A stretch of DNA of 64,000 nucleotides, from positions 1 to 64,000 of the forward strand of contig VIIQ02000306.1 in assembly GCA_007449985.2 (NCBI GenBank). The letters run 5' to 3'. Below are positions 150-61,614 of this stretch, one piece after another. Source of the stretch: Desmodesmus armatus. Lineage: Eukaryota; Chlorophyta; Chlorophyceae; Sphaeropleales; Scenedesmaceae. The position numbers were made by a program, and so were the translations under genes. Below the pieces are notes generated by a model. That model worked only from the letters and a program-made list of their open reading frames with translations. It made no database searches and had not been told where the DNA came from. Position 1 is the stretch's first letter, and each line of letters opens with the position of its first letter.

Positions 150-2118
150 CTGATGGCTGTGTTCTTCGCCAGGATGGTGATACCACGCTCGCGCTCCAGT
201 GCATTGCTGTCCATCACACGCACAGCCATGTCCTACACACCAACAACAGACAAGGCAGACACAGTCCGGCAGTTTGAATTCGCACACGTCGTTGAAACAA
301 TAATTTTTGACAAACAGTGCATTGCTGTCCATCACACGCACAGCCATGTCCTGTAAGCACATAATCACAGCAGACACAGTACGGCAGTGTGAGTTGCACA
401 CATTGTTTGTGTTTGTGCTGGGTTGGTGCCCACACAACTGCCATCACCTCAACCACTATGCACTGCTTGTATGCATTCCTGCCTTTCCTCCCTGGTTGGT
501 TTCGCACACAGCCACTGCCACACTGCCCGCCGGCCAAGCCACACCCCCTGCAATACACAGCACATGCCGCCTTGGACTGCTTCAACCCTATGTCCGCTGC
601 AGCTGCCACCCCTCCCCCCTTCCACCCCTCCCCCACTCCACCCCTCCCCCACTCCAACACATAAGACACAAGACACAGACAACATGCCAAGCAGTCCCTG
701 CAGCCACCTACCTGGTTGCTGCGGAACACCTTGGCCTGCTTCAACTAGCTCCCTCCCTTTCCTTGCAGTGGCTGCAACCCAACCCACCCACCCCTTTCCA
801 CCCCTTTCCACAAGGTCCAAGGCGCAAGACAAAGCCACCACAGCCACGCACCTGGTTGCTGCGGAACACCTTGGACTGCTTCAACATGGAGTCCACCAGT
901 GTTGTCTTGCCGTGGTCGACGTGGGCAATGATGGCAATGTTGCGCACATCATCGCGCGTCACCTCCTCACCAGCGGCGTCACCAGGGGCTGCGGGAGCAG
1001 GGGCTGCAGAAGCAAGGCAGTCGGACAGAAATGAAGGGATGAGGGAGATTGTGTGGAGAATGAGTCATCGTGCGTCACCTCGCCACTAGCGGCGCAGCAG
1101 GGGCTGAGGCAGCGAAGAAGGGAGCAGTGAGAAGTGTGAGGTGTGTGTGTGTGTGTGTGGGGGGGGGGGGGGGGGGCTGGGTGCAGGTGATGACTCATCA
1201 CCTTCGCAGTCAGGTGTGCTGTTGGGTGGTCGGTCTGGAGGCTAGGTGTTGATGGTAGAAAGGTCAGTTGTCATCCGCACTTGGGATTACTGTTGTAGTT
1301 TGCTTCTATCGCCAGGCATGCAGTGCCAGGTAACAGGCAGCCTTGGCAGTGTCTGCGCCCTGCCATGGGCTAGGCGTACCCTGTCGCTGGGGGCAGCTGC
1401 ATGCAGCCGTGCATATGCTGCTGACTGTACAGACACATTAGTCGTACAAGTACTCCTGCCTGCCTCTCGCTGCCTGCTTGCCTGTCTGCTGAACACCAGC
1501 ACGAGCTGCTGCTGGGCACTGCTACAGTCTGCGATATCGCCAGCAAGCAACCAGCGCAGCCATACACAGAGCCAAAACATAGCCTCGGTTGATGAACCGT
1601 GATTATTAACCGTTCGCACCTTCAGCTGTTGCTGCAGCCCTGCACGCCAGCTGCCTCCTGGGCACAGCCAACTGCTGCTGCTGGTGCTGGTGTGGGGCCA
1701 GCAGGGCTGCAGGCAGACAGACGAGACAGCAAAGCACGACAACAGTTTGAGAATGTTGTTATATGAACGTCTGGAAGTGAGGAGGGCAGTCATGCAGGCC
1801 ACGGAGGTGGGAATTGCTGATGGTGCTGCTGCTGCACCACATGAGTGGCCACGGGGAGCTTGGTCACATGGTGCTGCAGACCCGCCTGATGTGATGCATA
1901 CATACTGAAAGCATTATACAGATTACGTCAAGCAAGTACCCAGGAGCAGAACGTCTGCCAGCGCCACAGCGCCAATCATCACCTGAGGCCGGGACCGATG
2001 CAACATGCTGGGGAGCAACCACGTTGGCGCGAATAGCTGCACACTTAGCCACACGTCCAACGGTGCTCTTCCTGCAGCTGCTGCTGCTCAGAGAACGGGT
2101 CTGGTTTGCGAGAGACAT
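150..2118 (-). CDS. typA: TypA/BipA-type translational GTPase, plastid form (5' part only)
   Basis: Ribosome-associated GTPase of the TypA/BipA family, probably acting in the plastid. Three exons are seen: 1983-2118, 852-1003 and 150-232, with phases 1, 0 and 2; the rest lies beyond the left edge. Exon 1 starts at ATG 2118 and encodes 45 residues rich in Ser, Arg and Ala with no acidic residue, a typical chloroplast transit peptide. Exon 2 holds the P-loop AHVDHGKT at about residues 72-79 and [16 protein letters not shown]. Exon 3 continues with [20 protein letters not shown], the switch I/G2 region containing the effector Thr. The order and wording match TypA rather than EF-G or LepA. Partial copies of exons 2 and 3 lie in the introns. 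The start is chosen because it opens the transit peptide and the frames join exactly. The family is secure; plastid location is inferred. Confidence 0.9.
315..353 (-). repeat. Copy of the 5' edge of typA exon 3
   Basis: A 36-bp copy of the start of exon 3, preceded by its own CAG acceptor, lies 83 bp upstream of the true exon start at 232. It breaks off after the codons for SNAL and runs into unrelated sequence. Exonic identity is complete over this stretch. Confidence 0.85.
712..745 (-). repeat. Copy of the 3' edge of typA exon 2
   Basis: A copy of the exon 2 end ([10 protein letters not shown], one substitution) with a GTAGGT donor lies downstream of the intact exon end at 852. A further 16-bp piece of the same exon is at about 570-590. 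Confidence 0.85.
1065..1108 (-). repeat. Copy of the 5' part of typA exon 2
   Basis: A diverged copy of the Ala/Pro-rich start of exon 2, around the GGTGACGC...GAGGTGACGC stretch, lies upstream of the real exon start at 1003. It is followed, in the sense direction, by intron sequence that resembles the true exon flank only weakly. Confidence 0.6.

Positions 2119-61614: not shown

Follow-up and report, generated by a model that had tools for sequence, protein, structure and literature searches.

Why should exons along a stretch of an algal genome be accompanied by partial copies of themselves in the neighboring introns, and why should the copies that retain the start of an exon lie upstream of it and those that retain its end lie downstream? 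The question is raised by the first 64 kb of contig C301 of Desmodesmus armatus (hereinafter the window), in an assembly of 115.8 Mb and 831 contigs. We obtained gene models with our own two-strand, splice-aware HMM gene finder, which was seeded with nine short peptide stretches, trained on the window together with 178 kb from four other contigs, and retrained with a further 59 kb from six more. It recovered TGCAG as the acceptor consensus and AG/GTG as the donor consensus; its weakness is that it sometimes merges same-strand neighbors and sometimes calls copies as exons. By these models the window has a GC content of 55.5%, a mean intron length of 394 nt and 17% coding sequence, beside published values of 57%, 462 bp and 15.7% for Tetradesmus obliquus (PMC5966456).

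Gene identities were checked by means of Pfam, PDB and homologous proteins. Eight of the ten window proteins sent to Pfam returned a match, comprising a BipA-like GTPase, an aromatic amino acid hydroxylase, an amine oxidase, a TPMT-like methyltransferase, a 4HBT thioesterase, a 3-ketoacyl-CoA synthase (KCS), a GDT1 protein and an ABC ATPase. The La gene lacks a Pfam match and was recognized through a PDB match to Lupus La protein chains (best E 9.4e-6). The product of the gene with exons 37288–37478 and 38695–38831 gave neither a Pfam nor a convincing PDB match, and 16 homologues were found for it; we tentatively take this conserved Scenedesmaceae protein gene to be PsbQ-like. The best homologues of the window KCS are a JGI protein (87%) and a Tetradesmus obliquus protein (83%). 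A diverged paralogue of the hydroxylase gene (window 11200–15500) lies on contig C170, with five matches of 78–82% confined to exon-sized stretches.

We scored a repeat match as a partial exon copy if one edge of a called exon lay inside it and the exon continued for at least 12 nt past the match; a strict test further required the part of the exon outside the repeat to be coding-scored. In the window, 24 copies passed the strict test, and they belong to 13 exons of 7 genes; all 13 start-edge copies lie upstream and all 11 end-edge copies downstream of their exons; the 24 include nested matches from single arrays, and one of the 13 exons (33281–33419) is itself a copy. The earlier note had counted more than 30 fragments in eight of ten genes: the copies are real, and our count is lower because whole-exon and weak copies were excluded.

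At the 5′ end of the window, on the minus strand, the BipA/EF-Tu-like GTPase gene (Pfam GTP_EFTU on the joined exons) has an intact exon at 150–232 with a start-edge copy upstream at 315–407, whose 36-nt exon part is 100% and intron part ~75% identical, and another at 852–1003 (gene model, Pfam) with an end-edge copy downstream at 701–745 that retains the 5′ splice site. The aromatic amino acid hydroxylase gene (minus strand; Pfam Biopterin_H) has an intact exon at 14012–14153 and, upstream, a start-edge copy with two in-frame stops at 14229–14284. Upstream of the flavin amine oxidase exon at 21772–21895 (plus strand; Pfam Amino_oxidase) lies a start-edge copy of 29 nt at 100% identity (21634–21662). 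The TPMT-like methyltransferase gene (minus strand; Pfam TPMT, recorded for exon 33535–33782) has copies at two exons: the exon at 31943–32094 by the retrained model (an earlier model had its end at 32002) has three end-edge copies downstream within 31500–31894 (31808–31894, 31636–31741 and 31500–31563) and a start-edge copy upstream at 32182–32270, and that at 33535–33782 has four end-edge copies downstream within 32499–33426 (33264–33426, 33020–33106, 32759–32831 and 32499–32570).

In the conserved Scenedesmaceae protein gene (plus strand; gene model and homologues), the exon at 37288–37478 is followed by an end-edge copy at 37571–37605 that keeps weak intron-side similarity, and that at 38695–38831 is preceded by a more diverged start-edge copy at 38284–38341 and a less diverged one at 38458–38544, both counted codon differences of which are synonymous. 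A stop-end copy of exon 39300–39446 at 39603–39780 (plus strand) also lies downstream, in keeping with the rule, and stands outside the 24. The KCS exon at 46197–46465 (plus strand; Pfam FAE1_CUT1_RppA and homologues) has three start-edge copies upstream within 45809–46153 (45809–45892, 45960–46027 and 46065–46153); the Pfam profile also finds a window KCS copy at 45769–45897, and one copy of a KCS gene on contig C120. Three exons of the La-protein gene (minus strand) are affected: 50267–50841 (the PDB match covers an earlier part of the joined protein), with a start-edge copy upstream at 50922–51096 that differs by seven synonymous changes and one nonsynonymous; 51265–51580 (gene model, PDB), with two start-edge copies upstream within 51765–52091 (51765–51842 and 52015–52091); and 55055–55200, which aligns to the Lupus La protein chains and has a 98% identical end-edge copy downstream at 54936–54984 and a start-edge copy upstream at 55289–55382.

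The same arrangement recurs on other contigs. Across ten blocks (C150, where one repeat pair spans the whole 9.2-kb stretch, was excluded from the copy counts), 74 of 86 unfiltered matches lie on the expected side. Seven of the 12 violators come from a repeat at 25–28.5 kb of the C60 block and two from the start of C200, where the first kilobase is poorly modelled; the other three, of which C120 has one and the window two, are copies that the gene finder took for exons, and their outside part lacks a coding score. The two in the window, where 27 of 29 unfiltered matches obey, copy the end of the TPMT-like exon. The C60 repeat appears to be a real coding array since both its members carry a coding score. 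We then required a coding score of at least 4 for the outside part and at least 8 for the exon, and excluded C60 25–28.5 kb and C200 1–1000; these filters were chosen with the unfiltered list already in view, and dropped all 12 violators along with 19 obeying matches. The numeric filter alone leaves 64/69 obeying, with all five violators in the C60 array, and exclusion of the two regions without the score filter leaves 63/66.

With both, all 55 copies obey (window 24, C200 13, C120 11, C5 3, C400 3, C302 1); they come from 30 exons with 36 exon edges, and counting by edge is safer, as arrays give several matches per edge. In 53 of the 55 no other supported exon stands between the copy and its exon. 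Tabulation of exon edges against side on the sampled contigs, which the earlier note had proposed, returned 12 wrong-side matches among the 86 unfiltered ones and none after filtering, and its rule has no convincing counterexample in the window (24/24) or on the other contigs (31/31, filtered). The observation of partial exon copies that follow a side rule is therefore confirmed, and it extends past the window.

The rule itself is the expected geometry, since a truncated, adjacent direct copy of an exon's start can only sit upstream and one of its end only downstream; it is evidence for local head-to-tail duplication and not a separate phenomenon. Comparison of the window with itself by BLAST returned 99 repeat pairs, of which 94 are direct and five inverted; the members lie less than 1 kb apart in 71 of the 94 direct pairs and less than 3 kb apart in none of the five inverted ones. 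Local matches, within 2 kb, are direct in 91 cases and inverted in none in the window, and number 207 direct against one inverted over eleven blocks; at 111 loci their spacing has a median of 191 nt and a middle half of 131–261 nt. Exact tandem duplications occur in C60, as a 66-nt repeat at a spacing of 62 and a 260-nt repeat at a spacing of 258; their junctions, with 4 and 2 shared nucleotides, would suit end joining, two cases being too few to prove anything.

We also asked if exon edges are a special target, by shifting each block's repeats circularly at random and recounting exon-edge overlaps. The window has 25 overlaps against 20.4 ± 6.6 by chance (P 0.24), and the counts were likewise not significant in C5 (3 vs 2.6), C120 (16 vs 9.4 ± 4.8) and C400 (4 vs 3.4); C200, among the five blocks tested, is a borderline exception (18 vs 8.5 ± 4.7, P 0.04). 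Special targeting of exon edges is not supported in the former four blocks.

These observations are probably best explained by local direct duplication that is blind to genes, after which selection keeps the exon intact. Short direct duplications would arise locally and repeatedly, in parts of the genome, irrespective of gene structure. A duplicated stretch that begins or ends within an exon and reaches into the intron beside it would leave the exon whole in the inner copy alone; the outer one, cut short to an exon edge and its splice site, would stay in the intron. Since selection would remove the duplications that damage coding sequence, the survivors would be those that lengthen introns and leave decoy splice sites behind. 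Intron lengths agree in part with the lengthening proposed in the earlier note: introns with copies exceed the others in length in C120 (P 0.0009), C200 (P 0.012) and C5 (P 0.04, with only two such introns), and do not clearly do so in the window (P 0.09).

The supposition that this is a dense, genome-wide process finds no support in the sampled blocks. Local direct matches per 10 kb number 14.2 in the window, 14.0 in C200, 14.0 in C250 and 12.0 in C400, fall to 5.2 in C120 and 3.6 in C60, and are ~0–1 in five other stretches (C150 1.1, C5 1.0, C302 1.0, C30 0, C90 0). The density of duplication is thus regional and patchy, and not that of an even genome-wide engine; the contrast among the eleven blocks, from 0 to 14 per 10 kb, is strong and has no obvious cause. 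A genome-wide search with the KCS profile recovered 18 loci by our own grouping, two of which (on C301 and C120) contain a clearly repeated profile segment, on the predicted sides, though short copies mostly fall under the profile threshold, and the search detected just one of the three KCS copies in the window.

Might the copies serve as alternative exon edges in some transcripts? Their splice dinucleotide is preserved in 24/27 start-edge and 24/28 end-edge copies, and a synonymous bias in their differences, described below, would agree with such a role. Some, however, contain stops (three in 1014 compared codons) or frameshifts, and the KCS and TPMT copies have deletions. Were a copy's splice site used, the exon would grow by the whole unit; by hand count the copy spacing is a multiple of three in 17/55, and we rejected in-frame use on this basis. 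Moreover, the repeated stretch is single in the aligned homologous proteins of both genes so compared, KCS (7 of 42 homologues aligned) and the PsbQ-like gene (6 of 16), some of these homologues being transcript-derived, to judge by their names. We consider functional copies very unlikely.

Gene-blind duplication followed by plain neutral decay of the outer copy makes a prediction for the differences between exon and copy that the data do not follow. Within the same matches, mean identity is 92.5% for exon parts and 82.7% for intron parts (31 pairs); the exon part is the more similar in 24 of the 31, and the two identities are uncorrelated. In five comparisons the exon parts are 97–100% identical and the intron parts 72–77%, and in several arrays similarity drops sharply, by eye, at the splice site. 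The nature of the differences is also unexpected: at 22 edges, taking the best copy per edge and a mutation spectrum from non-coding repeats, 32.5 of 90 are nonsynonymous, against 52.0 ± 4.4 expected for a neutral copy beside a constrained exon. These are edges whose copy is non-coding in the model, together with window exons listed by hand on homology; most C120 copies, being called coding, were dropped. The window alone gives 23.5/66 against 39.0, and the nine edges from other contigs 9/24 against 13.0 (P 0.07; third positions P 0.04). We rejected the mutation spectrum as the cause, since in the whole set and in the window the excess persists under three transition weights and under non-coding rates.

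Changes private to single array copies, on the other hand, are near neutral (44/76 nonsynonymous, 34/76 at third positions). We likewise rejected the idea that the copies had evolved under strong coding constraint along their own lineages: a count by eye had given 17 synonymous to 9 nonsynonymous changes, and the automated count gave 32 to 44. Taking the pairwise synonymous excess with the near-neutral private changes, the copies are decaying, and part of the difference between exon and copy resembles coding divergence. The earlier note's reading of local tandem duplication thus stands as regards direct orientation, adjacency and predicted side, and meets a difficulty in the intron half of young copies, which is often less similar than the exon half.

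Our best guess for the greater likeness of exon halves is occasional recombination between exon and copy, by gene conversion or unequal exchange, or the birth of copies from a diverged allele. As a refinement of gene-blind duplication, this is a tentative proposal of less than even probability. The introns would be too diverged to pair, leaving only the exon halves shared, and the differences would be those of coding alleles, consistent with the shortage of nonsynonymous changes, the uncorrelated halves and the loss of similarity at the splice site. It sits poorly with the near-neutral private changes and with the faintness of the synonymous excess outside the window, and a contrast of 97–100% with 72–77% exceeds what allelic synonymous divergence alone would produce. 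Nor did searches with the KCS, La and hydroxylase genes find a near-identical second copy of any of the three among the best 40 candidates per search.

That last result also bears on an assembly artefact in which pieces of two diverged haplotypes were joined so that the shared exon edges are repeated. Two haplotypes would indeed give conserved exon halves, diverged intron halves and synonymous differences. Single edges, however, have two to four copies of differing similarity, which would need more than two haplotypes, and many joins would be required within 64 kb of a window that contains no N; we consider such an artefact very unlikely. A stronger form of the recombination proposal, in which sequence exchange between exon edges and their intronic copies continues through ectopic recombination, with introns as a maintained reserve of exon edges, seems to us unlikely too, though clearly less so than the artefact. 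Were it true, the copies would supply the exon with mutations continually and be subject, indirectly, to purifying selection; their splice sites and near-coding sequence would long outlast the divergence of the intron halves.

The spacers between copy and exon add a further constraint on duplication as the source. In 14 of 55 copies the spacer is shorter than 25 nt or the copies overlap. For the 41 spaced copies, head-to-tail duplication predicts that the spacer should resemble the intron side, as it does in 14 against ~1 expected at P 0.02, although 10 of these 14 are at multi-match edges, where the spacer can hold another copy. The other 27 have no significant similarity to the intron side, including several with an exon half 97–98% identical, and among copies of 93% identity or more, most fall well short of their spacing (length/spacing below 0.9 in 14 of the 17 that contain exon sequence).

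For many copies one could therefore picture long target duplications (30–90 nt) at a filled-in staggered break, with unrelated DNA captured between them. The shortness of young copies relative to their spacing would fit, as would the spacers at 54985–55047, 38545–38668 and 21663–21760, which have no significant similarity to their flanks. Same-genome searches with these three spacers gave a second match for none, which argues against both a mobile insert and a detectable donor, and the 14/41 spacers with intron-side similarity tell against captured filler; we rate it improbable. On the same searches (3/3 without a second match) we rejected a mobile insert or introner with target duplication. 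The 63-nt spacer at 54985–55047 contains CCCTAAA pieces, presumably a telomere-like motif.

Small tandem duplications from staggered breaks are not new: Vaughn and Bennetzen reportedly described in 2014 patch-mediated repair in rice with this outcome. Their formation by staggered-break fill-in (Pol alpha-primase/CST) has been demonstrated in cells of mouse and human (PMC8355091), and the algal copies resemble them as short direct repeats of tens to hundreds of nucleotides, a likeness drawn here from the sequence pattern. They differ in that many young copies in the alga have a spacer without recognizable homology, that their density is patchy and locally high, and that exon halves are more similar than intron halves.

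The nearest described relative found is intron gain by tandem genomic duplication, in which a new intron arises when an AGGT segment lying entirely within an exon is duplicated (PMC4974935, PMC3443670). Both leave exon sequence within an intron and duplicate splice sites; in the alga, unlike in that process, the duplicated piece spans an exon–intron edge and would lengthen an existing intron. The 90-bp exon arrays of Tetrahymena, for which unequal crossing over was proposed as the engine (PMC6564038), are similar as multi-copy arrays of exon pieces with a proposed role for unequal exchange; they consist of whole, coding exons, whereas the algal copies are truncated and absent from homologous proteins in the two genes checked. 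No title or abstract among the papers listed from a limited open-licence literature reported the pattern in a green alga, which is weak evidence of its absence.

Short local duplications that place exon edges and decoy splice sites in introns have left a clear natural record in this alga. Each unit, being half coding and half intronic, would provide paired molecular clocks, whose mismatch makes recombination between exon and copy directly testable; the part worth following is the conserved exon halves with their mostly synonymous differences.

Several features lie beside this subject. The C120 block has another KCS gene, going by its translation, and similar copies accompany it; downstream of its exons, at 29106–29509 of the block (~49.1–49.5 kb of contig C120), four called 36-nt exons encode the same 12-residue peptide at ~123-nt spacing; they are in-frame duplicates of a whole exon and candidates for new exons. 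At a third of the KCS loci, on contig C302 (~59.3–60.1 kb), two adjacent matches to the KCS profile share 22 profile positions, which may mark a further repeated exon edge. The single local repeat pair of contig C150 (20001–29246, all 9.2 kb) may be a large tandem duplication or a satellite. The sole strong inverted repeat of the window is a 140-nt pair, 98.6% identical and ~7.2 kb apart (19149–19288 and 26459–26597), perhaps a dispersed element, and a 76-nt stretch at ~13227–13303 recurs at 80–92% identity in at least ~30 other places as a small dispersed repeat. Toward the 3′ end, 61772–63939 is occupied by repeat arrays with a unit of ~190 nt.
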